The notes beneath the pieces were generated by a model. The model did not search any database. It saw only the letters and a program-made list of their open reading frames with translations, and was not told the origin of the DNA. A program made the translations under genes and the position numbers. A stretch of 64,000 nucleotides of DNA, taken from NCBI GenBank assembly GCA_026874595.1, contig CM049313.1, forward strand, positions 34,933,159 to 34,997,158, in the 5' to 3' direction. Origin of the DNA: Sipunculus nudus. Its lineage: Eukaryota > Annelida > Sipuncula > Golfingiida > Sipunculidae. Positions within the stretch are counted from its first letter, which is position 1. The number at the start of each line of letters is the position of its first letter. Positions 11,326 to 61,505 of the stretch are shown here, piece by piece.

Positions 11326-12443
11326 CTTCAATGGGAAATGTGGTGCAGAGTAAATGTATTATACAAACGTTAAACTTTATATCTCAAACCCCAAATCTTT
11401 TATTTTTCCTGACTGATCTATGATCAGGTTCAGGTAACATACATTCAGTTTAAAGTTACTGATCATCCCTTACTTATTGATTTAAGGCTATGCACATGTT
11501 TAAACTGCAGTACCACATGCGTATTTGGCAAATCTGATGTCATGTTCTTCTTGGATAATTGACCTAACCATGAACTACATATGACTTTCATAGCATTTTC
11601 ATTAAATGATTAATCATGAGCAGAGCAGTTGCGAGCAACCAATAAGGTTACCATTGACAGTGAAAACAGTAAATCTCCAGACAAACACAAAATTTTCTTG
11701 ATTTGGGTGACAGGAAAAAAAAGTCAACAGGAACACCTGTAGTCTGTGCCAGTACCAGTGTCCACTTTTTCCAGGATCTTTTTTTTATAAAAAGGAGACA
11801 ATATAACATTTCTGGCACATGGGTTGCACGAACATTTTCTGCCAACGGCCAACTAATATTATGCCTTAGCTTGTACTAAATCATATGAGACAAATAATCT
11901 AAACTTCACAATAACTGCGTTATGTTCATCACCGGAAAACTGACATCAACAAGCAATTCCAGCTAATGATGTCAGCAAATGAGAAGTCATACCTGACGTA
12001 CCTTTGTCTTTGTGACATCAATATTGCTTTATAAACATTTCCCACAACCACAGACATTGAAAGCCTTTTGTTAAGGGGATGTTGGGGGGTTCATTTGCAT
12101 CATTAGGTCAAAGGGGCAGAGCATAAGGGCTGTGGTGGCAAGGTCAATTTCACTTTTAGATATCCTATTCTTTAATGTACCAGTATGAAGCAAGACTGCA
12201 TGATGGGTGCATTGGAACCCCTGAATTTTTAGGATCCATGGCACGGTGAAAGACTTACTAAAGAAAGGACTCTGTTAGCCACATAGGTTGACAAACCATC
12301 ATTCTGAAAGGTCAACCAAACAGTTATCATTCCTGAATTACTTTCAGTGATAACTTTAATGAAAGTAGGTAATATGGAAATAAAAACTAATCAATAAGAT
12401 GCTATTCAAGTAATTTGCTCTGAAGATGAATGTTCACACTTAC
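11326..12443 (-). other. Fibrillin intron, 1118 bp
   Basis: The intron between the EGF3 and hybrid exons. It begins GTAAGTGTGAAC (minus strand) and ends CATTGAAG, an acceptor with a poor pyrimidine tract. I see no repeat family member in it. Confidence 0.88.
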
Positions 12444-12539
12444 CAGACTGACATGTTGAGCCAGTGAAGCCATACTTGCAGGCACAGCGGTTTGGTGCAA
12501 TACAACGCCCCCCATTCTGACATCTACTTGAGCATGAAG
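12444..12539 (-). CDS. Fibrillin exon: EGF domain 3 (non-calcium-binding)
   Basis: This 96-nt exon encodes [12 protein letters not shown], then [19 protein letters not shown]. Six cysteines have EGF spacing, with CxNGGxC and CACxxGFxGxxC motifs and no DxDE calcium signature. The APNRCACxYGFTG stretch is very close to the third EGF of human fibrillin-1. Acceptor TTTTCAG and donor GTAAGT (minus strand), phase 1-1; the length equals that of the equivalent FBN1 exon as I recall it. In fibrillins this tandem EGF run belongs to the N-terminal assembly region. An ORF of 82 codons contains this exon plus unspliced flanks and is not the real protein. Confidence 0.95.
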
Positions 12540-14569: not shown

Positions 14570-15060
14570 TTTTGTAAGTGGTATTTTCATTCAAATTCAG
14601 GTTTCCAAGGCGATTTTTCATGGACCTCCTTGAATGACAAGTTAGAAGATTCTAGGTCCAATGGTTACCTGTTAACTGACAACCACATCTTTTGAGGTCT
14701 CAAAAATAAAGGAAAAATGTGTATTTTTTTTTTAAATCCAGGTGGCGAAACAAGTCGGCAGGAACTGATGAAACGCTCAATGATCAATATGCATGCAAAG
14801 AATCATGATGATCAATGCATTAGTAGTTCAGATACTGGAGCTTTTGTATCAAATTTTTAACAATCTGGGGCTGGGGGTAATTATGAACTCTATAGCCTGA
14901 ATGAAAGAGACCTTGTTTCAGGTTTCCAAGGAAATTTTTCATGAATGTCAAGTTAGAAGATTCTAGGTCTAGTGGTAAAGATTTGTGCCCTGTTTACAGA
15001 CGGATGAATGAACAGACAGATGGACAACAGACAAAGAGATATCCTAAATTTGGTGTATTT
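14570..15060. repeat. Partial copies of the ~345-bp arm unit
   Basis: This holds one partial and one near-complete copy of the unit that is tandem at 24520-26125. Landmarks in order are CAGGTTTCCAAGG, TTTTTCATGGACCTCC, TTAGAAGATTCTAGGTC, AGGTCTCAAAAATA, CAGGTGGCGAAACAAGTC, AACTGATGAAACGCTC, GATCAATATGCATGCAAAGA and ATTTGTGCCCTGTTTACAGA. The GGTGGCGCCACC palindrome is damaged here. No element ends are seen, so this is a truncated relic. Confidence 0.8.
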
Positions 15061-15398: not shown

Positions 15399-15965
15399 AA
15401 CTGAATAATACCATGATTATATATTAGATTTACAGTTGACTGGGACAGCATGGGTGTTGCAGCTACTTACAGTACTCATCTCTCTATATGGGAAAGCCCC
15501 GTGACAGCAGACGACAACTTAATTCACAAGGGTCAAGGACATGGGTCATTGCCAAACGGCATGCGTAAGGGGGTTTTGTAGACGCCAGAATGCAGAACAT
15601 GCCAGAGAAAATCTTATTTCTAGCAGCCTAATTTGTCAAAGTTGAAACATACGGCAGGTCACTTTAAATTTTTTGTTCTCTGCACAATATACTCACAATA
15701 TCTGACACTGAATTGTGATTCTTTTTCCTCCCTTTTAGAAAAAACGGATACCGTTCATTGAAGGGAACCCCATTCTCCGGAACTTGGGTCAGTCATTCCT
15801 TGAGCATGCGTATTGCGTACAGTATGAGTGTGTTGTTTTATCATTCGCCACCAGAGGGCTCTCAGTGTACAAGAGCCTTTGCCAAACGCCACAACCATAT
15901 GATATTTTACTCATATACCTCATGGGCTAACATTGTGTTGTTCACTGTTGCGCGGTTGCTGTGAA

Positions 15966-17622
15966 AGTCATCTGAGCTATCTTTGTCCGTCGTCCGTCCG
16001 TCTGTCTGTTCGTACATGCGTCCGTTAACAACGCGCAAATCGTAACCGCGCATGGACCTAGAAACATCAAACTGAACACCCATGCGGGTTCATAACATAT
16101 CTCCTGGGAAACCTGAAATTATGTCAATGTGACCCAATTCCTCCGAGCTATGGGGCTCGAAAATCCCCCCCCCCCCCTTGAATAATTAAAAATTTTATAC
16201 AATATCTCCATTATATCAATAAAGTTCTCATGAATTGATTGCCACGTTTCTTTCCATGCATATTGAACAAATAGTGTTTCATCAATTTCTCGATACTGAT
16301 GGCACCACCTGTATGTTTTCAAATTTGTACGCATTTTTTTCTCTATTTTTAGACCTTCAAATGAAGCAGACCGGACGATAACAGGGCACACACCGTAACC
16401 GTTCGACGTACAACCATTTAATTGTACATCCAAGTAGGTCCTAGGCAAATATCCTGAAAGGAGGTCATGGTGAACTATATTAATTCTGCTAGTTACTGAA
16501 TGAAACCTGATTAAAGCACCTAGAGGGTCAGACAGGGCACACATTGGAAACGTGAAATTAGGTCACCGTGACCTATATTCCATGGGTAACTGGCCAAAAA
16601 CGTCAATTTGACCACCCTGAGAGTTAGAAACGGCAAAAATTGTATCCATTAGACCCAGAAACTTCTAGCTGTACATCCATGGAAGTCCTTTGCAAAGCTC
16701 TTCGAGCTTGAAATTAGGTCATAGTGACATATTCTGTGAGCTACTGGCCAAGCACCAAGATAGCCAGACGGGGCACATTGATCCATTTGGCCTACAATCT
16801 TCTGATGTGACATTCAGGATGCATGGTCCTGGGTAAATGTCCTTGGAAATATGAAATTTGGTCACTGTGACCTATATACTGTGAGCTACTGTTATATATA
16901 CTGTTAGCCCTAGAAGCTCTTAATGTAATAGAAGTTTTCTTGGAAACCTGACATTAGGTTATGATGACCTATATTCTTCGAGCAACTGGCCAAAAATATG
17001 ATTATGAGCACCTAGGCAGTCATGCATGCCACCAAACTTTACTGTTAGACCTAGAACCTTCATTAATGACATCCAGGGAGGTCCTTTGCGAGTCTCCTAT
17101 GAATCCTGCTATTAGGTCACCTTGACCTATATTCTCTGAGCTATGAGCAGAAAAACTAATTTTGAGCAACCATAAAGTCAGACAGGTCACAAATCTTAAA
17201 TGTTGGCTGTAGAAATGTCTTTCTTAATATAAAAGAAGGTATTAGTAATGTCTCCTTTCAAGGCTTTGACAAAAGGTCATTGTGACCTATATTATGTGAG
17301 CTGTGTAATACAGCATGATTTGAGTAACCTATTATAAGTAAGATGGACACAAGCCATAACAATTTGACGTAGAAACTTATGACTTAGCACTAGGATTTTG
17401 TTGGAGTTCCTTCTAAAGTTTTCTTGCTGCTACCTATTTTCTAGGAACTACGGGCAGAAAAACATGATTCTGAGCACTCTGGAAGTCATTCTACCCATTG
17501 TTCAAGGTTCCTTACCAAATATATTTTGCCAGATCATAACATCAATTATTAATACATGCATCACCTGTATACATGTAAAATTCACCTGAGCGTCATGACC
17601 CATGGGGCCGTAGCGAATTTGC
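15966..17622 (+). mobile_element. Composite non-autonomous element with AGGTCAnnnTGACCT array
   Basis: The left part begins GTCATCTGAGCTAT, then GTCCGTCGTCCGTCCGTCTG, the family's GTCC/GTCT tract, followed by one arm unit (GACCTAGAAACATC to TGATGGCACCACC near 16310). From about 16430 to 17300 a degenerate tandem unit of roughly 170-200 bp repeats the order GACCTAGAA, GGTCCT, GAAATTAGGTCACNGTGACC, then GAGCTA(C/T)TGG. The right end is ACCTGAGCGTCATGACCCAT followed by GGGGCCGTAG at 17583-17622. No coding capacity is seen; the 141-codon minus ORF at 16119-16544 crosses a C run and two unit types and is spurious. Confidence 0.75.
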
Positions 17623-18480: not shown

Positions 18481-18821
18481 CTTCCCACGCCGTTAAAATC
18501 CATGGATTTTTTAAAACAGAAATTAAGTATTAACAGTCATGATATTTTGGGCATTTTTAAAGAGATATGAACAAGTCATCAAATTTTATTTGCAGGCTGT
18601 CTAAAAAGTCTGTAATCCACGCTTGCTTTCTGTAAGTAAATAGTCATGACTGAATGATGAAACGTTCGGAACCCGAAATCTTACTCGCATCGGAGCCCAA
18701 GCGTCCGACCGGAATCGCGGAATTTCGGGCAGTTTGAACAAGAAGATAATTTTTGGCTTTTTAGCTCAGCTGACTATAAGTCATCTGAGCTATAGTCATG
18801 GTCCATTGTCCGTCGTCCGTC

Positions 18822-18856
<35 letters not shown>

Positions 18857-20306
18857 CCGTCTGGATGTCCGTCCGTAAGACTGGCACGTTTCGACACCGT
18901 TGGACCTACGAATCTGAATTTCGGCATACAGTTAGATGTCCCCATAATCTCCTACCATGCCAAAAATTGGGTCAATAGGACTTCGTTCCCCTGAGATATT
19001 AAGGAAAAACCTCAATTTTTTATTAAAAATCTATTTTCACACTTCAGGACTGCCTAAAATCAAAACCACTCATCTGGTTTTCTTCATATTTACCATAAAT
19101 ATTCCTCTATATAGTTCCTATGTACATGCCAGATATTAAGTCAGTATTATATAATTTAAAAAAGTTATGAGCCCAAACATAATGGACTTTGTAAAAAAAT
19201 CAGGAAGATATTTGGTCACTTAAGACCTAAAGTGTTAAAGGTAGGGACTTTTTTCAAGTAATACAACTTATATTAATCAAAATTTAACTGTATACCAAGA
19301 ATTAGATCAAAATTTGTTAAATTTTTTTAAATATTGGCAAAAATATAAAATTGGTACCTTAAATTTTGCCCAACTTTGGCCATGGCACGTTTTTTTCCTG
19401 TAAGTACTGTGGATTTAATTTTCACACCATGTATACATAAGGATTTAATCTGTTAAAATCTGAAATTTGAAAATAAAAGCTGCAAAATTAGGCTAGTTAT
19501 TGAATTTTTTTGGAGGCTCTTGTTGTATTCCCTTACATTGTCAAGCAGTCCACTTTGATGACTGTAGGTCATTCAGTGCACATCTCTATGCTCCCCAGGC
19601 TGTTGACATAATTTTAGATGTCCCCAAAATCTCCTACCATACCGAAAATTGGGTCATTAGGACTTTGTTCAGGACTTCGAGATATTAAGGAAAAAAACTC
19701 CGTTTTCCATAAAAAAGCCATTGTTACACTTCAGGGCTGCCTAATATCAAAACCACTGATCTGTTTTTGATCGTATTTAGGATTCACATTCTTTTAAACA
19801 TTTTCTATGAACTACAAAAATTAGGTTAGTATTGGGTATTATTTTGAAGTTATGGGCCAAAATATAATGCAATTTGTTAAAAAATCAGGAAATATATTTA
19901 CTCACATGAGAATTGCTGAACCTAGAGACTTTTTTTCAGGAATATAACTTTATTTAATCAAGATTCAATTGTTTACCCAAAATTAGATCTGAATTTTGCA
20001 AATTTTTCAAGTTATTAGCATAAATAAAAAATCAATACCTTGAATTTTGTCCAACTTTGGCACTGTTGATTTAATTTTCACAGCATATATACATAAGGAT
20101 TTAATCTTTTAAAATCTGAAATTTCAAAGAAATCGATTGGAAAGAATAGCTTTTATTCATGTTTTCATACACCATGTCAAGTGTTGTTTACATCTAGCCC
20201 ACCTAGTAGTACAGCCTTCACTTGCATTATGTAACCCACCCCAGGCAGCTTGCCTTGGGTCAGCTTGGCCACTACCAGCAGGCTTCCCCTCTGCTCTGCA
20301 CTCCCT

Positions 20307-20328
20307 CCCCCCCCCCCCCCCCCCCCCC
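20307..20328. repeat. Poly-C tract, 22 bases
   Basis: The longest uninterrupted C run in the window, inside the long element at 18767-22034. Confidence 0.95.
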
Positions 20329-20881
20329 AGATGGTGCAAAAACTAGATGAATGTTATTATTTTCTGTATGTGATTCATTCTTATTTTAGGCTATGCTACA
20401 TTTTAGATTTTGTATTGTACCACTAGGGTTACAATGATTAAAGTGTACATTTAATTGTGTCCACAAAGTGGTGTATTGCTATGAAAGTGTGGATGTTCAT
20501 GAGATAAGTAATTCCTTACTTCAGAGGAGTAAAAACTTCACCAGGTGTGAAATTGACTATTAATTTCAGTAATTAATTAAAACTTGGATAGTAATTAGCA
20601 CAATGATATTGTTTGTTTCTCATTCAACCAACAGTGTGTATACTTTATTTGAAAAGATGTTTTATTTTATCAAATTTACTGAATCTTTTATTTTATTTTG
20701 GTGAATAAAATTAAGCAGGTACTGAAAACTCCAATGTGCAAAACTTTTTAATAGTGATTCAAGGAATATTCTTGTAGATGCCATGTTGTGGCATTATTTT
20801 CTTTTAAATTCAGTTTAAACATTTATGATTTAAAAATAATAAAATATATGTGTATGCATAATATGACCCAATATGAGCTAC

Positions 20882-21020
20882 ACTCTGGATATATGATGAT
20901 TGCAACTTTTGCAACAATTCTAATATTTTAACTTATAGTTTCAGTTTTTTACTCTGTATATATAATGATTGCAACTTTTGCAACAATTCTAATATTTTAA
21001 CTTATATTTTCAGGTTTTTT
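20882..21020. repeat. Two-copy tandem repeat, 69-bp unit
   Basis: ACTCTG(G/T)ATATAT starts at 20882 and 20951. Both copies share ATGATTGCAACTTTTGCAAC and AATTCTAATATTTTAACTTA almost perfectly. It lies within the larger element at 18767-22034 and looks like a recent slippage duplication. Confidence 0.95.
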
Positions 21021-22779
21021 CATTTAAAATTTATAAAACCTGTAAATAAAAAAAAATGATTCAGATAAAAACTTCTTAATGGAAAAAGTGGATATGCTTA
21101 AAAAAAATAGGCTTATATATAAACTTAAATGCATTATTCCCTTGAAAGTGAATTAAGGTATTAGTCCATTCTGTCCACTTGCCTGTCCATCTGTAAATTT
21201 TCCATCTGTAAATTTTCATACATTACAGTATCTCAAAACTTTTACTGTTTTTCTTCATGACAGTCTTGTCAGAGTATTAGTTTGCAATCATATATTTAGA
21301 ACTTTACTATAACCAAGTAGGAGGGCCCCTTTCCTCTTAGCTTTTCATATTCTTATATAAATGAAAAACATTACAATAGAATATTTCTACATCCACCTTC
21401 GTGCTGCCCTCACTTTTCCCTTCTCCGAACCCCATCCCAAAGTCAGCCTCAGTAAGCAAGAACAAGATGAATCAGATATATTCATACTTTAATATTTTGT
21501 ATAACTATTCGTCCATAGGTACCTATGTACATGCCAGAAATTATGTCAATATTGTGTAATATGTAGACATAGTGGGCATCACAATAATGTACCTTGTCAA
21601 GACTAAAGAGATATTGTGTCATACAGTCACAAATTCATAAATCACTTCATCAGCATAGTTAATCATAACATCATATCTGTCAAATTGAAAGCTTGCAGAC
21701 TACCATACACTTTAGATCCTTCAACAAATAGCCTTATCATCATTCTACTACTGCTTATTACTGCTGTCATTGCATTCATATTTGCTCAAATATATCACAA
21801 TTTTCTACACCTCTTTAATAAATAAAAAAAATAAACCACTATATATGACTCTATTAATCCATCAGTCAGGTTATTTCATTTATCATTTACTCACATATTA
21901 CATTACATTCCTTTATAATAGCCCAACATGTCCATGATATTCATAAGCTTTATCGACTCGATATAGTATCACAGTGGAGAAACATTTATGGTCCAATCAC
22001 GATCAGCTGAGCGCCGTGACCCATGGGTCCCTTGTTTTTAGCATGCACTGACCATTGCCAAATATTTAAAAAAAATGAATTATGTAAACACTCCTGACAA
22101 CAATCCCTTAGTTTCAAATCATCATATAAAGACACAATATCTAACCATATAATGATAGGGAAATCACAAACAAATTTAAAATAAAATTTACACAACCCTT
22201 CTAAATTTGACGCAGATCACCACCAATTGGTTCGCTCCTAATTCCCATTTGATGCCCAGAAATTTTGTCCTGAGCGTTCCGTATGCTTCAACATTTCTTT
22301 TTATTGAAAACACAAAGCATTGACGGTGACAAATTAATTTTTAATTATGTCTGGATATTTTAATTAAGAGATGGAAAGTTTCACTGTTTAGATCGTACCT
22401 GGCCGTATTTCATTTACTTCATGACCCATAATTAGGGAGGCTTCTTTATCTGTCTCATTTCTTAGCACATGCAAAATTTAACAGAAAATTTTAAAGTAAT
22501 TTTTAGTTAAACATTTTAAGGACCAATGTTGGGAGTAAAACTGCACCCCTAAATATTAACAATTGACCCGCGGGTCATGACGCTCAGCCGACTGACATGT
22601 TGATAATGTGTCCTTGCACAGACAACTAACTAGATATTTCTTGGCACCGCAGGTGCCAGAGTATCCCCAGACATAGTACGGCCACCACCCTTTAAGAATA
22701 GGCCCCCATTTTTAGCAGCATATACTGACACTTGGCAAGCAATTATTGTTTCTTCTATCTATCAATCCACAATCTTTTT

Positions 22780-24010
22780 GAAGATGTTGGTCCTGTGACC
22801 TTGACCTTTGATCTCATGACCCCAAATTCAATTGGGGTCTTGCTTTTATAATGGGACATATATGTCAAGTTTGACATCTATACATCAATTAAAGGAGGAA
22901 TTATCATCCAGAAACTAATTTTTTGACAGATGGCTCCTGTGGCCTTGACCTTTGACCTTGTGACCCCAAAATTGATATTGATCATCCACTTTTATATATA
23001 AATCGATAGAGGTCTAGATTTATTGATGGGCCATGTATAAGTCAGGTTTGAAATCCATATATTAATCCAAGCTTGAATTATCATCTCGGGAACTAATTTT
23101 TGGACAGATGGCTCCTGTGACCTTCACCTTTAACCTTGTGACCTCACAATTGACAGGCGTCTTCCTCTATTGGCAGGGGAACTGTATGTGCAAGATGAAA
23201 TGTCTTAGATGAAATGTTTGGCTGAAAATGCATCCACAATCTTTTTAAAGATGTGTCCTGTGACCTTGACCTTTGACCTCATGACCCCAAAATCAATTCT
23301 GGTCTTGCTTTTCCAATAGGACATATACAAGTCAAGTTTGAAATCCATACATCAATAAAAGCAGGAATTATCATCCAGAAACTAATTTTTGGACAGATGG
23401 CTCCTGTGCTCTTCAGCTTTGACCTTGTGACCTCAAAATTGATAGGGGTCTTCCACTCTTGGCAGGTGAACTATATGTGCAAGATGAAAGATCTGAGATG
23501 AATTGTTTGGCTAAAAATGCATCCGCAATCTTTTTAAAGATGTGTCCTGTGACCTTGACCTTTGGCCTCATGACCCCAAAATCAATTGGAGTCTTGCTTT
23601 TTCAATGGGACATATATAAGTCAAGTTTGAAATCCATACATCAATAAAAGCAGGAATTATCATCCAGAAACTAATTTTTGGACAGATGGCTCCTGTGACC
23701 TTCACCTTTGACCTTGTGACCCCAAAATTGATATGGATCATCCACTATTGGCAAACTGAGCTATATATTCAAGATGGAAGACCTGGGATGAAAGTTTGGC
23801 TTAAAATGCATCCACAGTATCTTTTAAGATGCGAGTCCAGTGACCTTGACCTTTGACCTCATGACCCTAGAACCTATAGGGTTCTTACTATAGTGGTGGG
23901 CCATACATAAATCACGTTTGAAATCCATGTGGCTATCAACACTTGAGTATTCATAAGAGGTGTGTGATTTTCACCAAATATGGACACATTAAAGGTCAAG
24001 GCCATTCTCA
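22780..24010 (-). repeat. ~150-bp tandem array rich in TGACCTTGACCTTTGACC
   Basis: Units of about 145-150 bp alternate between two types, giving a ~295-bp higher-order period. One type has TGTCCTGTGACCTTGACC, CTCATGACCCC and TCAAGTTTGAAATCC. The other has GCTCCTGTGACCTTCACC, CTTGTGACCCC, CCACTATTGGCA and GTTTGGCTTAAAATGCATCC. Core phrases start near 22790, 22930, 23108, 23250, 23400, 23545, 23690 and 23838. The same two unit types appear inverted at 50850-52100. Confidence 0.9.
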
Positions 24011-24486
24011 TGGTAAAGGTCATGACCCAAATGTAAATAGATCTCATCCCATAACCCATCTCTCTTCATGTGCATAATATGAAAGAAATCTGTCCATTTG
24101 TTTTTGACTTATAATGCTTACAGTATTGTCAAGTGGCAATTATGGGGGTATTAAAAGGCGTAAAAACAAGGAAAAGATAATAGGTGGCGCCACCAGTTTC
24201 CGGTATATCACAAGGCTATCCAAGATCTTCGGTCACCTTGATTTTTGGACCGGTCCATGCAAGGTTACTTGGGATATTTAAGAATTTGTGGTATTTTCAG
24301 CAAAAATGGACCTATTCAAGGTCAAGGTCACTCTCCTAGCATAGGTCATGACCCCATTTTAAATAGGCTTCGTTCCGTTACCTATATCTATATAAATTTA
24401 AAGTTTGAAAAAGATCAGTGAAATATTTTTTGAGTTATCCCGCTCACAAGGTTTTTCTGCGGCGGCGGCGGGACCGTCGTGAAACC

Positions 24487-24517
24487 ATAGTATCCCGCCT
24501 TTGTCTTGGGATACTAT
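24487..24517. other. Perfect 10-bp stem-loop
   Basis: ATAGTATCCC at 24487-24496 pairs perfectly with GGGATACTAT at 24508-24517 across an 11-base loop. It sits beside a CGGCGG triplet run (24461-24471), at the junction between the two tandem arrays of the surrounding element. It may be a boundary relic of an inserted element. Confidence 0.6.
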
Positions 24518-24519
24518 TA

Positions 24520-26125
24520 AGACAGGTGGCATCATTGTTCATGCATATTAGCTTAAGTTCATCAAGACCAATAAGCACAACAAATTTGATGACAATCCAA
24601 CCAGTCTTTCTTGAGGAATCTGGCAATTTGTGTGTATTTTGCATTATTTCTGGGATGCTCAAACATACCCCAAAACTCACTGTGACCCAATTTCAGGTTT
24701 CTGGGGAGAACTTTTTAAGAACTCTCAGGATGTCAAGTTAGAAGATTCTGGGCCATACTTTTAGTTATGATTTGTGCCCTACTTATGTATCAAATTTTCA
24801 ATTATTCTGAGGGGTGCTTATGAGCCCGATAGATAAGAAAATATGGGTTACAGAGACCTTAATTCACATTTTCAAGGAGACTTTTAACAGATCTCCCTGT
24901 ATGTCAAGTTTGAAGATTCTAGGACCAATGGTTACAATTTGAGCCCTGTTTAGGGACGACCGCATCCTTGAAGGTCTCATAAATAGAGAAAAAAAAAATA
25001 TGTTGAATTTCTTTTAAATTTGGGTGGAGCAACCAGTCCGCAAGAACTGATGAAACACTCCATGATGAATATGCATGCAAAGAATCAGGGTGATCAATGC
25101 AATAGTTGTTCAGATACTGGGGCTTTTGTATCAAATTTTTCTAAGCCCCATAGCTCTGACAATATGGGTGACAGAGACCTAATATCAGGTTTCCAAAGAG
25201 ACTTTTCATGGGCCTCCCAACATGTCAAGAAAGAAGATTGTAGGTCTTGTTGTTACGATTTGTGCCTTGTTAACAGATGACCGCATCTTTTAAGGTCTCA
25301 AAAATAGATAAAAAATAGTAAAAAATTTTTAAAAATACAGGTGGCGCCACAAGTCTGCAGAAACTGATGAAAAACTCCATGATCAATATCAATGCAAAGA
25401 ATCATGGTGATCAATGCATTAGTTGTTCAGATAATGGAGCTTTTGTATCAAATTTTCTGTTATTCTTGGGGGGGGGGGGGGAGGGGGTAGAAGCCCAATA
25501 GCTCACAGGTTTTGTGTAACAGAGATCTAATTCCAGGTTTCCAAGGAGACTTTTCATGGGCCTCCATGCATGTCGAGACAGAAGATTCTAAGTCCAGTCA
25601 TTAAGATTTGTGCCCTGTTAACAGATTGGCATCTTTTAAGGTATCAAAAATAGAGAAAAAAAAATCGTGAAAAAAGCGAAAAGTTCAGGTGGTGCCACCA
25701 GTCTGCAAAAACTGATGAACACCCCATGATCAATATCCATGCAAAGAATCATGGTGATTAATGCATTAGTTGTTCAGATACTTGAGCTTATGTATCAAAT
25801 TTTTCATTATTCGGGGGGGGGGGGGGTACTTCGGAGCCCCATAGCTGGAAGAATATGGGGAACAGAGACCTAACTCACGGTTTCCAAGAAGACTTTTTAT
25901 GGACCTCTCTAGATGTAAAGTGAGAAGATTCCAGGTCCAGCGGTTAAGATTTGTGCCCTGTAAACAGATGACGGCATCTTCTGAGGTCTCAAAAATAGAG
26001 AAAAATAATTGTAAAAAATCGAAAAATACAGGTGGTGCCACCAGTCTGCAGAAGTTGATTAAACACTCCATGATCAATAACCATTCAAAGAATCATGGTG
26101 ATCAATGCATTAGTCGTTCAGATAC
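24520..26125 (-). repeat. ~345-bp arm unit, four tandem copies
   Basis: The start of each unit is marked by the palindrome or its derivative at 25020 (damaged), 25340, 25688 (GGTGGTGCCACC) and 26031, giving spacings of about 320, 348 and 343 bp. Each unit runs GTCTGCAGAAACTGATGAA, GATCAATATNCATGCAAAGA, GGTGATCAATGCATTAG, TGTATCAAATTTT, a G run of 13-14 bases, AGCCCCATAGCT, GGTTTCCAAGGAGACTTTT, AAGATTCTAGGTCCAG and GTGCCCTGTTAACAGAT. The conserved G run coincides with the homopolymers at 25468 and 25814. Confidence 0.9.
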
Positions 26126-26785
26126 TTACAGTCAGCTGAGCTAATAAACGATTGTCGGTGGCACACTTGTATGAGATTAAGCTATGATCCTATTTTTATG
26201 GACATGCAAATTTCAGGCTAGTTCGTTCATGTATGTAAAACGCTTTAATTGCACGGATTATGAAAATCTGTAGAAGTTAAGCGCAAAGGTTATTTCTGGG
26301 CCTTGTTGGTTCTTTGAATTTGGGCTTACACGACAAATGCACAAGCCAACGGGAACCACGCGTTTTCCTTTAAAAGCGCACCTTCTGTTCACAGGTTCGT
26401 CCTCTAGTGGTAATAACATATCACATGTTTTCTGGTTATTCCTTTTAAATGACACTGCTGTACCTGGACTTTTATAAATAACAGCAAACGTGATATATTT
26501 TGATATAACGGGATTCAGAAAACGTTAACTAGAGCTGTAGTCCGCACAGGAAAGGTCAAACAATGTATTCTGATGAACATGGTGTTGATATCACCGTACA
26601 GATGGCGCTAATGGATGGCGCACCTGTGACATGCGCAGTAAAACGTATTTCACTTTATATCTGAACTTTTGAAACTACACGGGGCGGTTCAATCATGTAT
26701 CATTATTTTACACTGTATGTCATTCCTGAATAAAACTGAAACTGAAGTCAATCTTTATGAATTTACATGAAATCTCTTTACTTAC

Positions 26786-26881: not shown

Positions 26882-28144
26882 CTGTTTGAAAGGTAAGTAA
26901 ACAACATTAAATGTTTGTTAGAAGGATAAGTTAACAACATTAACTGTGTGCCAAAAACTTAACTTTAAATACAGGATAAGAAACATAAACATCAAGGGTT
27001 GTTGCCGCAAACTGACTAAAAGCTCTGTAAGGACTTGCCACGGGAGAACCCTAGCAATGGTTTACAAGCCTGCCCAAGGAATTAAGTTTAAATGATGTTA
27101 TGGCAGTAGATCTGTATGGCAATATAAAATGAGAATTTAAAGATGAAGCCACATAAGCAATGTGAAAAATTGAGTACAGGGGATGCAATGCTTTCAGGAA
27201 CACGGGGGTAAACGTCTGTGACGCTCTTTATCTCTTTCGGACGCTCGGGGATCCAAGCGTCGATTCGGGCGCGCGAATTTCTGACTATATGAGCGAGCGC
27301 AGGCAATGACCATTATGCAGACTACATCATTGAGGTTTAACAAACCAGTAATTCTGTAAACACTGTGCTGAAAGTGACCCTGACATTTTATTATAATCAT
27401 ATAATGATTTATGATAATTTACAATCATTATAATGATACGATTATGATGTTATATAAAAAAATTTAAATTTAAATAATTTTTCTAAATTTGAAACCGACC
27501 CCTTCACTTGGGACGCTCCATAATTCCCCTGACTCTCCAATTTTTCTTTCTATTTATAGTATGGAAAATTAAGACTAGAGCAAGAAGAAATGTAGACATC
27601 AAGTGTAAAACACGGGGAATACATACATGAAATATAGTGGGGGGAAGTTTAGAGATTAAGCATAACCTGGTGGATTTCATGAGCGTTATAATATTTCATT
27701 ATGCAATTTAAACATTGGGGACATTAAAAAAAGAAATGTTATATTGATGTATAACTTCAGGGAAACGCAAATATTTCAACAAGATCAGTATACGTCTATT
27801 CCGTAAAATATGTTGTAAAATCTTAAAGGAAATGTTAAGTCGAGACGCTTTTATCTTCAGTAAAACTGAGACTCACATTAAATGTTCGCCATTTGAGCCT
27901 ATGGAACCTTAGTGAAATTTCACTGTCCTAAATCAATCATTGTACTTTAAAAAAAACACACATTATACTCTGTAGAGTATAATTTTGCTGTTAGATAATC
28001 ACCACATTCAGGCGGACAGGGATGGTGGAATGGAGTTATAGATAGAATGGTACACATTAGGCCAAGGTACAATTCCTTTTCTAGACACGCCCCTTTATTC
28101 TAAGACCAAACGGGTAAATAAATGGCGGAGGTATATAAACTTAC
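26882..28144 (-). other. Fibrillin intron, 1263 bp
   Basis: The intron between the EGF1 and EGF2 exons. It begins GTAAGTTTATA on the minus strand and ends CTTTCAAACAG. It holds an AT-rich stretch with short ATTATAAT inverted motifs near 27395-27480, but no recognised repeat family. Confidence 0.85.
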
Positions 28145-28246
28145 GTTCCTTCTTGGTACTGCATGATGGCCCGTACTTGTTACCTCCACACTTGCATAAG
28201 TTTGGCCTGATACACAGTCCAATTCCACAGCCACTTTTACACAGAG
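28145..28246 (-). CDS. Fibrillin exon: EGF domain 1
   Basis: This 102-nt exon encodes LCKSGCGIGLC, then IRPNLCKCGGNKYGPSC, then STKKE. Six cysteines are in EGF spacing. The CGxGxCxRPNxCxC pattern is that of the first EGF of vertebrate fibrillins, where the loop is short and there is no calcium site. Acceptor GTTGCAG and a strong GTAAGT donor (minus strand), phase 1-1. The equivalent FBN1 exon is, as I recall, 99 nt, so this one is a codon longer. In fibrillin-1 the FUN-EGF1 unit takes part in N-to-C head-to-tail assembly; the same role here is inferred. Confidence 0.94.
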
Positions 28247-29027
28247 CTGCAACAGAATTATAAACAATTAAAAAGTATGCAAACGAAAATGAAACGCTGC
28301 AATTCAGATCATTTAAATGATCCATATTGAAACATAAAGCATTAAATCAAATACATTTTCTTGTCATCAAATATCTATAGAGAATAAAGCTGTGTCGGAA
28401 TCTCATTGCAAAGAGAACCTTGTTTTTTTATATACACGGTAACATGTACCACAGATTGTCACCAGTGCCCCCCTGTGGTTATCCTTGATATTAGTTTTAG
28501 TTTTATTCACAAAGATAGTGAACACTGAGCTTGAACCAAATTGCAGGACACTTCTGACAAAGAATATTTGTATTTCATCAATTATCTTTTAAAAAATCCC
28601 CTCAGTCATATGTTATATGGTAAATGTGTATTTTAGAGGGGTTTCTTAATGGCCTCTTATACAATCTTTAACACAAATAATAAACAAAAGTAATATTCTG
28701 TAATATACAGGAGATGTATGCTTTTATAATAATAAGGGCTATATAATGGAAGGTGGTGTTGTATGAGAGTCATTGTTTTTCCATAGTCGTTCCTTTTGGC
28801 ACAGATTTTGATCTTCCGCCATAACGTTATGCATGATGTTGATGACATCGCCAAGAAAACGTTGAACTGTACAAGCTATATTTGGGCATTTATGGTTATT
28901 ACATATCAAATATACCTATAATCAAACTCTATAAGCATTATATTTTATAAAAGTATTCATTTCTTATTATTATAGAATAATAACATTTTGGAAACAATCC
29001 GTTAAAGATAGTAAACTAAGTCTTTAA

Positions 29028-29323
29028 CTAGGGACCCATGTGTCTCGAAGTTCAGATGAAATTGTCTATAATGTTATGTTTTTCATTATTGTAGGGGGTA
29101 ATTAAGAGCCCCATAGCTTGGAGAATATGGGTAAAAGAGACTTAATTCCAGGTTTTCCAAGGAGATTCTTCATGGACCTCTCTGGATGTAAAGTAAGAAG
29201 ATTCCAGGTCCAGCGGTCACGATTTGTGCCGTGTTAACGCACAGACGGTCGGATGGCCGGACGGACGACGGACAAAGACTTATCGCTATAGCTCAGATGA
29301 CTTACAGTCAGTTGAGCTAAAAA
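29028..29323 (-). mobile_element. Short (~300-bp) copy with both family ends
   Basis: On the minus strand it runs from TTTTTTAGCTCAACTGAC (about 29323) through the hairpin and a GTCCGTCGTCCGTCCG tract, one partial arm unit and an AAATTTCATCTGAACTTCGAGAC-like end, to GGTCCCTAG at about 29031. T follows CTAG outside. It is a compact two-ended version of the elements at 18767 and 50186. It contains no tandem array. Confidence 0.8.
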
Positions 29324-29744
29324 ATCAGGTGGCTCCATCAGTCTTCAGGAACAGAAGAAACCAGTCATAATCAATAAAAACACCTAGTTTCGGGACACTA
29401 GATGAAACCACAGATGAGAAACTGACATCATTGCTCTCCTTTGACGGTCTCAAATGCAGGAAGAAAATCGTAAAAATGGGAATAAAATACAGGGGGTGCC
29501 ACCAGTTTTCGGGAATTAACAACCCTAGTCGTTGTCGATATTCAAGGCAAAATTAAGGGCAATACATTCATTAATTATCAAGATACTTGACATTTTCTGT
29601 TAACTGTTTATATTATTCTTGAGGGGGGGGGGGGGGGTACTCGCAAACCCCATAGCTCTGACGATTTGTGCCTTGCTAACGACCGGCTAAACGGACAAAA
29701 GGGCATTGCTATAGCTCAGTTGACTTTCAATCAGCTGAGCTAAA
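29324..29744 (-). mobile_element. Second adjacent partial element copy
   Basis: The right limit is TTTTTAGCTCAGCTGATTG on the minus strand (29727-29745), with CTGAGCTATAGC completing the hairpin. A G run of 16 bases at about 29622-29637 sits at the same place as in the 345-bp arm units. GGGGGTGCCACCAG at 29490 is a damaged palindrome. It abuts the previous copy, so the two may derive from a head-to-tail insertion or a broken array. Confidence 0.65.
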
Positions 29745-32350: not shown

Positions 32351-32735
32351 ACTAGGGATCCATGGGTCTCGACGCTCAGCTGAATTGTCAATTAGTGATA
32401 ACACAGTATCACCGTTATATTATTGGGATCATTTTATCTGATTTCGTTGTAGTATCTCTAAAAACATTGGAGATATGAAGACTTTATTATAAGTAGGGAT
32501 TCAAGCGCCTGTGATTCGGATATGTTTATGAGCTTTTTTCAAAATATTGGTCCTGTGACCCCAGAATCCATAAGTTTCTTCCACTATTGGCAGGTGAGCA
32601 ATATCTGGAAGATGGAAGGTTTGGGATGGAAAGTTTGGCTTAAAATACATCCATTATCGTTTTAAAGAAGTTTGTCCTGTGACCTTGGCCTTTGACCTCA
32701 TGACCCTAAAATCAAAAGGGTTCTTATATTATTTG
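32351..32735 (-). mobile_element. Truncated element: one end plus AGGTCA-array unit
   Basis: The minus-strand end reads CAGCTGAGCGTCGAGACCCA, then TGGATCCCTAG (about 32350-32385), with TTTT outside. The body at 32530-32715 matches array units, with CCACTATTGGCAGGTGAGC, GTTTGGCTTAAAATACATCC and GTGACCTTGGCCTTTGACC. The hairpin end is missing. Confidence 0.75.
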
Positions 32736-33181
32736 CCGGTCAGTACTCCCAGGAGCTGCAACTGAGAGAAATGAAGATGGCGTTATGCGCCCGCTTCTAG
32801 GATTGGCTGAGAGCAGCGGGGCCATTATAGAGCGGGGTACCAGTCCAGAGGTGTTTTTCCTAATATAGTGTTTACTTTTGCTATCTCTGAGCGTTAAGAA
32901 TCATTTGTCTCTCGTTTAAGATGTCGTGGTTGCTTGTATTTTATTACTTCAAGAAATGGCAATTACCTTGATCAGACGCCGGGTGTATATTTTTTAGACC
33001 CTGCTTTGATCCGGCCGGTGTTTATAAAAATATCAGGCTCGGCATACAAAAACTGACACACACAACAACACATCGATACAATAAACCCGTTGGTCACTTC
33101 TTGGGAACGTAATTGAAACATCGCTAGTAAAAGCATTGTGTAAGGAAAAAAAAACAATGTAATATAAGATAATGTACTTGC

Positions 33182-33264
33182 CCTTGCTACATTTGTTGCC
33201 CCCTGAAGGAACAGTCCAGCCTGGACAACAATACTTGTGAAACTTGGACCCGCATACGTGTGGC
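33182..33264 (-). CDS. Fibrillin exon: end of fibrillin unique N-terminal (FUN) domain
   Basis: This 83-nt exon encodes [16 protein letters not shown], then [11 protein letters not shown]. It matches the FUN signature of vertebrate fibrillins: VCGS, then YCCPGW, then PGGN/SGGN-x-C. Four cysteines are present. It starts in phase 2 after a strong TCTTTTTTTCAG and ends in phase 1. The FBN1 exon that carries this segment also has, as I recall, 83 nt and the same phases. The GT-type donor at 33177 is four bases further on and would put EGF1 out of frame with an early stop, so the exon must end before GCAAGT. The upstream exon with the signal peptide and furin cleavage site was not found. Confidence 0.94.
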
Positions 33265-33654
33265 CTGAAAAAAAGAGAGCATTTGTTAGATAAATTGATA
33301 TTAAATGATTTCTTGATGTTTGGGAAATTTACACCAGACCTTTCCCACTTCAAAAGCGTCACATTTCCGCTGAGTGTACTAGTCCGTTTTTAACAAGACA
33401 GATCAGACTTTGTTATATTTCAAAGGATAACGTGAAAACATTAAATATATTGAAACGTCCCTCTCAGAGCATCTGCCATGTAATAGTATTTGGCATGGCC
33501 CCCTCCCCCCCCCCCCTATCAAATAATTGTTTTACGGGCAGTTGGTTGGTTGTATATGTGCGGAAGTTTTTTCAAGTCACTGGATGCAAATCGACATTTG
33601 CAAAACTCTTCTGACTTCCCGGCCAGATGTCCTTGTTAATTGAGTTAGAATTGT

Positions 33655-34010
33655 TTTAAGGGGGCCCACATGTTATTCACACGTGGATATTAACAAAACA
33701 AATAGCTTGTGTACAATGGGATCGGTGTTTAACTTAACCATTTGCATTATATTTGTTTTGTTCTTTAATTGTAAAAAAAAAAAAAAAAAAAAACATAGGC
33801 AATCATGTGTGTGCAACGAGTATATAACAAAATTGAAAACAACAGCAGTTCCTCGGAGCTGTGACAACACTGAATATTACACTTTAACACTGACTCCATG
33901 GTACACAGGCCGTTCGTTTTGTTTATATCCTCGTGTTTATAACATGTGGGGGCCCATCGAAATAATCAAAACACATTCATCAAGGACATCTGGAGGCAGG
34001 TCAGACGAAC
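33655..34010. repeat. Dispersed repeat with ~24-bp inverted termini
   Basis: GGGGGCCCACATGTTATTCA (about 33660) is mirrored by CGTGTTTATAACATGTGGGG and GGCCC (33933-33957), giving an inverted pair about 300 bp apart. The right flank, with AAATAATCAAAACA, AAGGACATCT and CAGGTCAGA, recurs at 61425-61505. A 22-base A run lies inside (about 33773-33794). The matching sequence outside the right terminus means the true boundary is not settled. Confidence 0.6.
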
Positions 34011-34029
34011 TAGGTTTTGCATATGGTGA

Positions 34030-34117
34030 CTTTTTTTTTTAGCTCAGCTGACTTTAGTAAGCCTATAATGTTTTACTAGTCAGCTGATCGTCATGAACCT
34101 AGGTCACTTGTTTTTTC
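34030..34117 (+). mobile_element. Minimal ~85-bp element: the two ends only
   Basis: TTTTTTTTTAGCTCAGCTGA at the left and GTCAGCTGATCGTCATGAAC, then CTAGGTCACTTG at the right, with T runs on both sides, are separated by only about 30 bp. It lacks the GTCC tract and the arms. It marks both limits of the family very cleanly and is best read as an internal-deletion derivative. Confidence 0.75.
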
Positions 34118-34266
34118 TGTTTGTCAACATGGACGCATATACCGTACTTACTAAAAACTTGTAGATGAATGAGGCCATACATCCGTCACAGCGGCATCAT
34201 AAGAACCTTTCCTAGCAGGAATAACTTACAGTTCATTCATATGTACGTAAAGTATGCAAGATATTA

Positions 34267-34491
34267 CATAAATACATCAGAAAAACATAAATACTTCAGG
34301 TAAACATAAATACTTCAGGTAAACATAAATACTTCAGGTAAACATAAATACTTCAGGTAAACATAAATACTTCAGGTAAACATAAATACTTCAGGTAAAC
34401 ATAAATTCTTCAGGTAAACATAAATACTTCAGGTAAACATAAATACTTCAGGTAAACATAAATACTTTAAGTAAACATAAATACTTCAGGT
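34267..34491. repeat. Minisatellite, 19-bp unit, ~12 copies, forkhead-like core
   Basis: The unit GTAAACATAAATACTTCAG repeats about twelve times with very few changes (CATCAGAAAA in the first copy, TTCTTC once, TTTAAG once). Every typical unit holds GTAAACA, the forkhead-family core. The unit length is close to two turns of DNA. Because the repeats are contiguous with no spacers, this is not a CRISPR-like array. Confidence 0.97.
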
Positions 34492-35769: not shown

Positions 35770-36213
35770 TGGATTAAATACCTAATTTCAGATTAAAACC
35801 TCCATGACCACCTTTCGCCAGGCAGAGGTCGTTTCTACTCAAAACGAACCTATTCTAGTTGCACACTGTGTGATGGCCCGGACTGATTGTCTCAAATGTC
35901 AAACTTGAAAATCAATTTGTAACATTTCGAGGAACACCATATGTATACATTTCACGTGCGCATCTTAAAAAATATTACTTATTCCGTGAAATTCCTACCA
36001 CAAACTCCCATATATATGTTATTTGCCTTGAAACAATTATTATCCAAAGTATTCGAGCGGACTGCATTACCTTCTTCACAACATTTATATCTAGATAATC
36101 TGTTTATGTAGAAGACCCGATGCATTGTGGAACGTGGATTCAAGCGCTCGCAAACCATATAATAGTTAACCAGCAGAGTCGTATTCTGGTGAGTCCGATT
36201 CTGCGCAGTGTGC
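35770..36213 (-). repeat. Dispersed repeat family (~420 bp), copy 1
   Basis: On the minus strand this starts GCACACTGCGCAGAATCGGA (36213) and continues ATACGACTCTGCTGG, AATAATTGTTTCAAGGC, AATTTCACGGAATAAGTAAT, AAGTTTGACATTTGAGACAA and GTTTTGAGTAGAAACGACC. The same landmarks, in order, occur on the plus strand at 42490-42900 and 57520-57870. A 79-codon minus ORF lies inside and is not conserved in the other copies. Confidence 0.85.
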
Positions 36214-42489: not shown

Positions 42490-42905
42490 TATCCTCACTG
42501 CGCAGAATCGGACACACAAGAGTACGACTCTGCTGGATAAATATTGTAGGCGTCAAAATCGGCGGCCAATATTTCACCAGGGGTTCTAAATACATCAAGG
42601 GCTTAGGTATATAAGTAGTGAAGAGGGTATAATCATCCTTTCAAATATGTTGGATAAGAATTGTTTCAAAGCAAATTAGATGGGTATTTTAGAAGTAAGG
42701 ACTTTACGGATTAAGTTATATTTTGTGAGCATGCGCATGTGATATGTAAACATGTGCTTCCTTGAAATGTGACAAAGTTATATTTTAAAGTTTGACAGTT
42801 GAGACAAGTAGATCCGGCGGTCCCATGCTGCCCAACTGGAAGAGGTTCGTTTTGAGTAGAAACGACGTCTGGCGGAAGAGTGGTTTAAATCAAGACCAAA
42901 ATTAT
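42490..42905 (+). repeat. Dispersed repeat family (~420 bp), copy 2
   Basis: Begins CACTGCGCAGAATCGGACAC at 42497. It then has TACGACTCTGCTGG, TTCAAATATGTTGGATAAGA, ATTGTTTCAAAGC, ATGCGCATGTGATATGTAAA, CTTGAAATGTGACAAA, AAAGTTTGACAGTTGAGACA and GTTTTGAGTAGAAACGACG. It is collinear with the reverse complement of copy 1. ORFs on both strands here are short and not shared with the other copies. Confidence 0.85.
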
Positions 42906-50185: not shown

Positions 50186-50690
50186 TTTTTAGCTCAGCTG
50201 ACTGTAAGCCAACTGAGGTATAGAACTGGCGCTTTGTCCGTCGTCCGTCCGGGCGTCCGGCCGTCCGTTAGCAGGGCACAAATCGTAACTGCTGGACCTA
50301 GAAATTTCTAAGTGAATATCCACGGAGGTCATTAAAAAATCTTCTTGGAAACCTGAAATTAGGTCACTGCGACCTATATCCTCCGAGCTATGGGGCTTGA
50401 AAGAACCCACCAGAATAATCAAAAATATAATACAAAACCTCCAATATCTTGATAATTAATGCATGGATTGTCATGAATCTTGCCTTGAATATTGACAATG
50501 ACTAGTTTTTGTCAGTTCCCGAGATATGGTGGCGCCACCTGTATTTTATGTTATTTTAACGAATATTTAAAAAAATTTTTTTAAATATAAAATGAAAACA
50601 ATCATGTCAGTTTCTCAGCTGTAATTACATCTAGTGTCCCAAAACCTGGTGTGTTTATTGATCACAAGTGGATGCCATATGGTTATCACC

Positions 50691-50727
<37 letters not shown>

Positions 50728-52188
50728 CATCCGTCCATCCACAAAAAAACTTGTTTCCAGATAATAACTCCAGGTTGTATTGACACATGGATTTCAAACT
50801 TGACTTACATATGGCCCACCACTAAAGCAAGAACCTATATGATTTTTGGGTCATGAAGTCAAGGTCAAGGTCATAGGACTCACTTTTTTAAAAAAGATTA
50901 TGGCTGCATTTTAAGCAAAGCTTTTCACTCCAAACTTTCCATTTTGCACATTTAGCTTACATGCCAGTATGGGGAGAGAATAAATGAATTTTGGGTCACA
51001 TGGTCAAAGGTCAAGGTCACAGGGACCATCTGTTCACAAATTTGTTTCCAGATGATAACTCCAATTTAGTTTGACATATTGGTTTCAAACTTAACTTTTA
51101 TATGACTCACCACTAAAGTAGGAACCGTGTTGATTTTGAGGTCCAGCGGTCAAAGGTCATGGTCACAGGACTCATTTCTTTAAAAAGAATGCATATGCAT
51201 TTGAAGCCAAACTTTTTCTTCCCAAACCTTCCATCTTCAAGATATTGCTAACCTGCCAATAGGGGATGATTCTGTTCAGTTTTGGGGTCATAAGGTCAAA
51301 GGTCAAGGTCACAGTACCCACTTATGTAGAAAGATTCTGGATGCATTTTAAGCCAAACTTTTCATTCAAAACCTTCCATCTTGCACATATAGCTGAGCTG
51401 CCAATAGGGTAAGAAACTGATTGATTTGGGGGTCACAAGGTCAAAGGTCATGGTCACAGGGGCCATCTGTCCACATATTTGTTTCTGGATGATAACTCCA
51501 GTTCAGATTGACATATTGGTTTCAATTTTGACCTATATATGACCAACAAATAATGTAAGAACCCTTTTGATTTTTGGGTCATAAGGCCAAAGGTCGAGGT
51601 CACAGGACCCACTTCTTTAAAAAGATTGATGATGTATTTTTAGCCAAACTTTCTGTCCCAAAATTCTATCTTCCAGATGTTGCTCACCTGCCAATAGTGG
51701 AAGTAACTTATTGATTTTTGGGTCACAAGGTCAAGGTCATGGGGGCCATCAATCCACATATTAGTTTCCAGATGATAACACCAGTTTGGTTTGAAATATT
51801 GGTATCAAACTTGACTTATATATGGCCCACCACTAAAGTAAGAACTTTTGATTCTGGGGTCATGAGATCAAAGGTCAAGGTCACAGGACCCACTACTTTA
51901 GAAAGATTGTGGATGAATTTTAAGCCAAACTTTTCATCTCAATCCTTCCATCATCAACATGTGGTGCACCTGCCAATAGGGGAAGTTACCTTTTCTTTTG
52001 TGGGTAATAAGGTCAAAGGTTAAGGTCACAGGGCTCATCCATTCACAAATTAGTTTATGGATTATAACTCCAGTTTGGGTAGACAGGTTGGCTTCGAACT
52101 GATCACAGGACCAATATTTTGGAAAACCTCATAACCATATATCCTTATAGACAAATGCAGCTGAGCCTCGAGACCCATGGGTCCCTAG
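50186..52188 (+). mobile_element. Complete ~2-kb composite non-autonomous element
   Basis: The left end is TTTTTAGCTCAGCTGACTGT at 50186. It is followed by GTCCGTCGTCCGTCC, one arm unit, the palindrome GGTGGCGCCACC at 50528, and a CTGT tract (about 50691-50727). Nine ~145-bp units with GGTCAAAGGTCAAGGTCAC-type cores follow (50857-52030). The right end is GCAGCTGAGCCTCGAGACCC, then ATGGGTCCCTAG at 52185-52188, with TTTTG outside. Arm, array and end are in the same order as in the reverse-oriented element at 22560-26146. No ORF of transposase size is present, so mobilisation would need a partner. It is the best reference copy in the window. Confidence 0.85.
50850..52100 (+). repeat. ~145-bp tandem array with repeated AGGTCA motifs, ~9 units
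   Basis: Cores lie near 50859, 51004, 51149, 51293, 51439, 51585, 51727, 51868 and 52011. Typical cores are AAGGTCAAAGGTCAAGGTCA or GGTCAAAGGTCATGGTCAC. Between cores come ACAAATTTGTTTCCAGATGA, TAACTCCAGTTTGG, TTTCAAACTTGACTTATAT, CCACCACTAAAGTAAGAACC, TTTTAAGCCAAACTTTTCAT and CTGCCAATAGGGGAAG. These are the reverse complement of the units at 22780-24010. Confidence 0.92.
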
Positions 52189-57519: not shown

Positions 57520-57870
57520 ACATAGCTAGAATCAGACTAACAAGGGTAGGACTCTGCTATTTAGGGTTTATGGGCGTCACAATCTGACCCCCACAATGCA
57601 CCGCGGCTTCTACTTACACCAGCGGCAGAGGTAAAAATGTAGTGAAGAGGTTAATGTAGTCCGTTCAAATATGTTGGATTAGAATTGTTTCAAGGCACAT
57701 TACATAAGCATGGATGTTTTTGGGCCAAGGAATTCACGGAATATGTAATATTTTGTAAGCATACGCATGAGAAATATAGATAAAAGACGTTTTCTTGAAA
57801 TGTAACAAATTTGTTTTCAAGTTTGACTTTTGGGACAAGCAGTCCCGGCTGTCCAACTGTGCCTTGTACC
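57520..57870 (+). repeat. Dispersed repeat family (~420 bp), copy 3 (3' truncated)
   Basis: Landmarks are AGAATCAGACTAACAAGG, GTAGGACTCTGCTA, TTCAAATATGTTGGATTAGA, ATTGTTTCAAGGCAC, AATTCACGGAATATGTAATA, TTCTTGAAATGTAACAAA and TCAAGTTTGACTTTTGGGAC. It is collinear with copies 1 and 2, but ends near TGTCCAACTGTGCC before the GAGTAGAAACGACC segment. Confidence 0.8.
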
Positions 57871-61404: not shown

Positions 61405-61505
61405 GCACACAGGTTGCTTGTTTTTGTTTATATAATATGTGGGGGCCCCGCTAAAATAATCAAAACAAATACAACAAGGGCATCTTGAAGCAAATCAGAT
61501 ATGCC
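61405..61505. repeat. Second copy of the GTGGGGGCCC dispersed repeat
   Basis: TGTTTATATAATATGTGGGG and GGCCCC, then AAAATAATCAAAACAAAT, AAGGGCATCTTGAAGCAAAT and CAGAT match 33933-34005 with scattered differences. The inverted left terminus found at 33660 is not visible here. Confidence 0.7.

Follow-up and report, generated by a model that had tools for sequence, protein, structure and literature searches.

The closest described relatives of the DNA analysed here are the HINEs, which in published cases are gene-less derivatives of coding Helentrons. As described for DINE-1 (PMC4067079), such an element has 13-bp subterminal inverted repeats (subTIRs), an inverted repeat about 3-22 bp from the 5′ subTIR, a 3′ stem loop, a microsatellite and a preference for TT. 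The same account gives subTIRs, stem loop and boundary Ts as common to the Helentrons of other species, and describes a proto-Helentron of Phytophthora infestans that has a 5′ TT and a 3′ CTAG and inserts between A and T. The Cg_HINE elements of the oyster Crassostrea gigas, as described in PMC7492417, carry a 5′ subTIR with a complementary inverted repeat, a microsatellite (GTCY, GTCC or GTCK in six elements), central repeats that lie in one orientation without exception (two elements have double arrays), and a 3′ subTIR with a palindrome. They insert into T-rich or TT sites with no duplication found, and their autonomous partners are left unresolved in that paper, which also counts the pearl family among HINE-classified elements.

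We analysed a window of 64,000 nucleotides of the genome of Sipunculus nudus, in which several loci carry one or both of two conserved ends. The loci have the appearance of old copies from a single HINE family. We put at about 0.9 the probability that they are copies of a non-autonomous Helentron that would have spread by rolling-circle replication, with a Rep/helicase from elsewhere, a start at the 5′ repeat, a stop at the 3′ repeat and palindrome, and TT as the target.

Structure of the ends

Read 5′ to 3′, the elements consist of a T-run, AGCTCAGCTGAC, five bases, a partner inverted repeat (GTCATCTGAGCT or a variant), a GTCC/GTCT tract, tandem arrays, TCAGCTGAGC, a few bases, the palindrome GACCCATGGGTC, five bases with a final G, and Ts. 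The 3′ TCAGCTGAGC is an inverted copy of the 5′ AGCTCAGCTGAC, which gives subterminal inverted repeats at both ends; GCTGAGC of the 3′ end is AGCTCAGC of the 5′ end inverted. The CTGA core of the 3′ subTIR is invariant in all seven aligned 3′ ends.

A word search of the window at up to three mismatches returned seven matches to TTTTTAGCTCAGCTGAC, against 0.21 expected. Six are 5′ ends, and the seventh, at 53403- (a sign after a position gives the strand), is probably a chance match, with an end-profile score of 4.3 bits. The palindrome GACCCATGGGTC, at up to two mismatches, also gave seven matches (1.37 expected), six of them 3′ ends and one (14498) a weak candidate; the 3′ end of the element at 34 kb is absent from this set because it is too diverged. 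Profiles run over the whole window found six intact 5′ ends (18758+, 26147-, 29323-, 29746-, 34036+ and 50186+), one truncated 5′ end in which the outer repeat is missing (15962+) and seven 3′ ends (17613+, 22034+, 22560-, 29028-, 32352-, 34110+ and 52188+), which bears out the original prediction that at least seven loci share one or both ends. Scores were 15.0-82.6 bits for the 5′ ends and 27.4-37.8 bits for the 3′ ends, and the best of 20 mononucleotide shuffles reached 9.0 and 10.9 bits, respectively. Rows used in building a profile score well partly by construction; the 5′ profile was built from four 5′ ends, with 15962, 26147 and 34036 not among them, and the 3′ profile from all seven 3′ rows found. 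The opposite strand of four 5′ ends was also matched by the 5′ profile (13.0-19.1 bits), as expected of an inverted repeat. Both ends are real, beyond chance.

The individual features of the ends are preserved to different degrees. The 5′ end had been predicted to form a hairpin, usually followed by a GTCC/GTCT tract. Indeed, the partner inverted repeat is recognisable at five of the six intact 5′ ends, 34036 being without one, but only three of these five fold better than shuffles as single-stranded DNA (z of -5.8, -4.1 and -2.8); the ends at 50186 (z -0.85) and 26147 (z +0.44) fold no better. The hairpin is eroded in these two. The tract is clear at four of the seven 5′ regions (18758, 29323, 50186 and the truncated 15962) but not at the remaining three. 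At the other end, the 12-bp palindrome is perfect in three of seven cases and eroded or altered in four. The final four bases are CTAG (three ends) or CTTG (two), as predicted, but ATTG and GTAG also occur, once each. None of six folded 3′ ends was clearly better than its own shuffles. Pairing within the palindrome held in 87.8% of cells across the seven 3′ ends and in 86.1% in shuffles; 141 of 500 shuffles were at least as high as observed. One change affects both sides of the palindrome (CATG to CGCG at 22565), and 91 of 500 shuffles match it. The 3′ palindrome is thus seen as sequence, without proof by covariation.

Copies in the window

The interiors are built of repeat modules, here called A, B and C. 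The element at 50186-52188 (plus strand) is complete. It begins with the T-run and 5′ subTIR (50186-50202), followed by the partner inverted repeat (50208-50219), a GTCC tract (50236-50269) and module A matches at 50232-50434 and 50444-50565. A second tract, of CTGT (50691-50727), lies between the A matches and a B array at 50738-52084, and the element closes with the 3′ subTIR (52158-52166), the palindrome (52172-52183) and CCTAG (52184-52188), after which comes TTTT.

Two further copies have both ends. The one at 18758-22034 (plus strand) holds a diverged A match (18844-18998, 59.7 bits) and C repeats at 18933-19469 and 19615-20124 with a fragment at 21489-21622; its palindrome (22018-22029) is followed by CCTTG and TTTTT. 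The copy at 22560-26147, on the minus strand, has two arrays: from its 5′ end at 26147 it runs through an A array (26126-24636), an A fragment (24277-24154) and a B array (23948-22763) to the palindrome GACCCGCGGGTC (22565-22576), AATTG and then TT.

The original prediction had treated 29028-29744 as one locus. The locus is real, and extends to 29746 on the minus strand, but it contains a pair of 5′ ends with a single 3′ end: no 3′ end of its own was found for the 5′ end at 29746, an inner 5′ end lies at 29323, and the 3′ end is at 29028. Module A matches span 29671-29063, and the inner 5′ end falls within one of them. The 5′-5′-3′ order with its one 3′ end may reflect a single tandem rolling-circle product, in which the inner copy is without a 3′ end, rather than nested elements; the introduction of PMC7492417 states that where Helitrons are arranged in tandem, the 3′ end is often missing from the inner copies. 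The locus would be explained equally well, however, by one element having inserted into an older copy, and a T-run of its own precedes the inner 5′ end. We regard the odds of a tandem product as even, and either history is compatible with the HINE reading.

The shortest copy, at 34036-34110 (plus strand), consists of two subTIRs, an imperfect palindrome (34094-34106) and ACTTG, with no array. It folds by pairing of its two ends, that is, of its subTIRs (z -4.0). Just downstream lies a 19-bp tandem repeat (34266-34491; 11.9 copies, 95% matches).

Two loci are remnants. The first, at 15962-17613 (plus strand), listed in the original prediction as 15966-17622, has lost the outer 5′ repeat but kept the partner inverted repeat and the GTCC tract; A-derived units reach to 17454, the palindrome is eroded and there is no TT outside the 3′ end. 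The second, at 32352-32743 (minus strand), listed as 32351-32735, has a 3′ end and one B unit (32710-32575), with no 5′ end found. A possible, weak eighth locus at 14496-15052 has two minus-strand A matches, with a 3′ end and a GTCT tract whose scores, 8.4 and 7.6 bits respectively, do not exceed those of the best shuffles.

Separately, the window contains three copies, in two orientations, of a dispersed repeat about 260-390 bp long (35823-36210, 42496-42871 and 57528-57854), for which self-comparison gave no link to the HINE copies.

Boundaries and probable target site

TT lies directly outside all six intact 5′ ends. Since the earlier search words themselves contained Ts, we reran the 5′ search without them. 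AGCTCANNTGAY, the 5′ word minus its Ts, occurs at 16 places at up to one mismatch, and TT precedes six of them, which are exactly the six 5′ ends; the other ten comprise four partner inverted repeats, one 3′ subTIR and five unexplained places. Downstream, TT follows the five-base tail at five of the seven GACCCATGGGTC places, the exceptions being 17597 and the weak candidate 14498, where TA lies outside. With the 34-kb end counted and 14498 dropped, TT adjoins six of the seven 3′ ends; the exception, 17613, has no TT. The frequency of the TT dinucleotide is 0.104.

Similarity between the copies ends at the T-runs. When the six 5′ ends are aligned on the base that follows the T-run, their mean pairwise identity reaches 0.94 over the 12 bases starting there and 0.93 over the five preceding ones; further outward it is 0.36, 0.19, 0.29 and 0.24 (0.27 in random sets). 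For the seven 3′ ends, identity is 0.65 in the subterminal repeat and 0.66 in the palindrome, figures lowered by the 34-kb row being anchored a few bases off, and it is 0.24-0.30 past the outer Ts (random, 0.27). Similarity continuing past the ends, which had been named in advance as refuting the family, was not seen in the window, apart from a small ambiguity at 34 kb. There the element is flanked by a repeat that recurs at 33.6 kb in inverted orientation and at 61.4 kb. The clear similarity of this repeat ends before the T-run and does not clearly resume past 34110, and when the locus is aligned locally with the 61-kb copy, the match takes in a few bases of the supposed 3′ end; comparison with these related copies in the window did not give a clean, readable empty site. 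The repeat itself occupies 33574-34025 as an inverted pair at 33.6 and 34.0 kb, with a third copy at 61431-61499, and the shortest element starts near its break-off point.

These boundaries bear on other classes of transposon. A MITE, that is, a remnant of a cut-and-paste DNA transposon with terminal inverted repeats and target duplications (a label once used for the pearl elements of bivalves), would account for the inverted copies of AGCTCAGCTGAC at both ends and for the shortest copy folding back on itself. The inverted copies are uneven, however: the 5′ copy starts at the T-run and the 3′ copy is set back by about 22 bp, with the palindrome and tail between it and the end. Moreover, the longest words common to both ends within 8 bp, for five pairs of ends, are of 5, 0, 0, 5 and 7 letters; the 7-letter word (50186/52188) is T-rich, and such words blur the duplication test, but with that blurring the five pairs show no target duplication of constant length. 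We therefore consider a MITE very unlikely.

Still more improbable is a canonical Helitron, with 5′ TC, 3′ CTRR and insertion between A and T, or a family like the proto-Helentron. Three of the seven 3′ ends are CTAG followed by T, the 3′ end reported together with a 5′ TT for the proto-Helentron (PMC4067079), the 5′ ends likewise start with Ts, and the palindrome stands just ahead of the 3′ end. However, there is no 5′ TC (the T-run is followed by AG), four of the seven 3′ ends are not CTRR, and the flanks are TT rather than A/T. The original prediction had held the class open because CTTG does not fit CTRR, an objection that falls away: as given in PMC4067079, the CTRR rule is stated for canonical Helitrons, and Helentrons and HINEs are described there as having subterminal inverted repeats.

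Finally, a tRNA-derived SINE is highly improbable, for although TAGCTCAGCTGA of the 5′ end resembles the A-box consensus of polymerase III promoters, no B box (by consensus, at up to two mismatches) lies within 150 bp of five of the six 5′ ends (the sixth has one at +130), no tRNA and no Rfam family was found in the window, and the elements reach 3.6 kb and have a 3′ palindrome.

Interior modules

The interiors had been thought to differ completely, which is not the case. A profile grown from the approximately 343-bp unit of the 22560-26147 element found module A in six loci (14.6-15.1, 16.0-17.5, 18.84-19.0, 24.2-26.1, 29.1-29.7 and 50.2-50.6 kb). Module B, whose 145-bp units alternate to form a 290-bp pair, is present in three (22560-26147, 32352-32743 and 50186-52188), and only module C is private, to 18758-22034. 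Unit length varies from one array of module A to another, the matches at 16.2-17.5 kb being shorter, at 75-277 bp. In both elements that carry the two, 22560-26147 and 50186-52188, A comes before B; the latter looks like a B part to which a head, with a tract of its own, has perhaps been joined. The orientation of the modules relative to the ends is constant in all six loci that have both a recognised end and a module, as the original prediction had stated.

A phylogenetic tree of those A matches that cover the chosen part of the model (18 of 29) did not group the monomers of the 22560-26147 array together; 26126 pairs with 29407 (0.95) and 25118 with 14836 (0.75). Simple amplification of this array in situ, which we had considered, is therefore unsupported.

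Elsewhere in the window, at 6922-7908, lies an array of approximately 278-bp units in minus orientation relative to module A, with no recognised ends nearby. It has the GGTGGCGCCACC palindrome and a GTCTGTCTG-like tract in common with module A, and the A profile also matches it at 7.2-7.8 kb (16.4-67.0 bits).

A receptor-like core in module B

The most conserved stretch of module B is AGGTCA-A-AGGTCA-AGGTCA, which recurs at intervals of about 145 bp (22763-23948, minus; 32575-32710, minus; 50738-52084, plus) and holds both DR1-spaced and DR0-spaced pairs of half-sites. In an alignment of 18 of the 20 B matches, whose units are not independent of each other within one array, the 18-bp GGTCAAAGGTCAAGGTCA has a mean majority frequency of 0.94, against 0.74 for the remaining unit. 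The two partial matches left out, 23881-23948 and 50738-50834, start beyond the motif. Among the 144 windows of its length GGTCAAAGGTCAAGGTCA ranks third, and it overlaps every one of the six best windows of 20 bp. At up to one mismatch, AGGTCAAAGGTCA has 13 matches in the window, all inside B arrays.

The core includes AAGGTCAAGGTCA, which is part of a DR0 probe used on thyroid hormone receptors in papers on oyster and Schistosoma. The Schistosoma paper reports that receptor alpha binds DR0-DR5, the oyster paper mentions the oyster thyroid hormone receptor binding to DR0-DR5, and a word of the core is present in a primer of an oyster cryopreservation paper. It is conceivable, if unlikely, that the B arrays are mobile arrays of putative nuclear-receptor binding sites, which would seed multi-site hormone-response arrays into introns (here of a fibrillin-like gene), or through which the element would exploit a host receptor for its own expression. 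Recombination between units, or binding of the element's own enzyme, would explain the conservation of the core as well. A search of the open-access literature for AGGTCA together with Helitron matched a plant chromosome paper, and 'Helitron' and 'nuclear receptor' co-occur within one open-access paper; the receptor idea may still be in print. The core had no match in viral contigs, a viral collection and so silent on animals.

Coding content and host gene

Of the 115 open reading frames of at least 45 amino acids that overlap the eight loci, a Pfam search of 14 gave no Rep, helicase or transposase match; one match, to a pox family (E 0.075), is at chance level. The longest stop-to-stop frame contained in the window is of 156 amino acids, so there is no intact autonomous Helentron within it, although remnants of one may lie in the other short frames.

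The window does contain exons of a host gene. On the minus strand, fibrillin-like exons span 10680-33389: a fibrillin unique N-terminal domain (33036-33389, E 7.1e-11; fibrillin-1 chain match E 8.7e-6), two EGF modules that fall short of the family cut-offs (28098-28346, E 0.0017; 12409-12696, E 1.8e-5), a TB domain (11105-11383, E 9e-8; fibrillin-1 chain match E 2.5e-29) and a calcium-binding EGF domain (10680-10853, E 7.1e-10). The elements between 14.5 and 32.7 kb are thus most likely intronic in a fibrillin-like animal gene.

Discussion

The non-autonomous Helentron-type reading put forward in the original prediction is upheld by the subTIRs, the partner inverted repeat, the microsatellite-like tract, the central repeats, the palindrome, the boundary TT and the absence of a coding domain from the open reading frames tested. 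What we read directly from the DNA is the ends and their order, the adjoining Ts, the shared modules and their constant orientation. The enzyme, the rolling-circle step, the polarity of the strands and the choice of target are taken over from the HINE family. By that analogy, the Rep/helicase of an autonomous Helentron elsewhere in the genome would recognise both ends and nick at the T-run ahead of the 5′ subterminal repeat. One strand would be peeled off via rolling-circle replication until the 3′ subterminal repeat and palindrome served as the stop signal, and the copy would enter the genome at a TT dinucleotide, leaving no target duplication. With the interior free to vary, arrays could expand, shrink and be swapped while the ends stayed.

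Wherever a feature gave a clear result, the elements agree in layout with published HINEs. Compared by description, they share with Cg_HINE (PMC7492417) the 5′ subTIR with its inverted repeat, a GTC-type microsatellite, the 3′ subTIR with its palindrome and insertion at TT or T-rich sites, as well as a satellite-like central array in constant orientation and two elements with two consecutive arrays; however, the A unit here is of approximately 343 bp, in contrast to the average of 140-180 bp reported there. The likeness to DINE-1, HINEs and Helentrons as described in PMC4067079, again by description, extends to subTIRs, 5′ inverted repeat, 3′ stem loop, TT preference and boundary Ts, and to internal simple or tandem repeats. 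The pearl family and DTC84 of bivalves, judged from their descriptions (PMC5139131, PMC7492417), are similarly modular and gene-less with short central arrays, but their central repeats, reported as about 160 bp, differ from those of the present elements. The proto-Helentron of P. infestans, as reported (PMC4067079), shares the 5′ TT and the CTAG of three of the seven 3′ ends, but it inserts between A and T instead of at TT, is about 14 kb long and codes for protein.

Neither the 5′ hairpin nor the 3′ end had any match in the viral contigs, and the 5′ hairpin had none in prokaryote genomes, collections that are silent on the distribution of the family in animals. The plain 17-mer of the 5′ end did match two viral contigs, but these are the same stretch and have no partner inverted repeat or GTCC tract, and we took the match as chance. 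A search of the literature for the end words as letters gave no transposon paper, by title or start of abstract, among the open-access matches listed.

A pattern previously left unclassified is now assigned to a published kind of element. Within one window, the same ends are seen with one array type, with two, with a private one or with none, a range of interiors that is relevant to the spread of satellite-like repeats by Helentrons. If the core of module B were bound in cells, HINE copies would carry regulatory sites.
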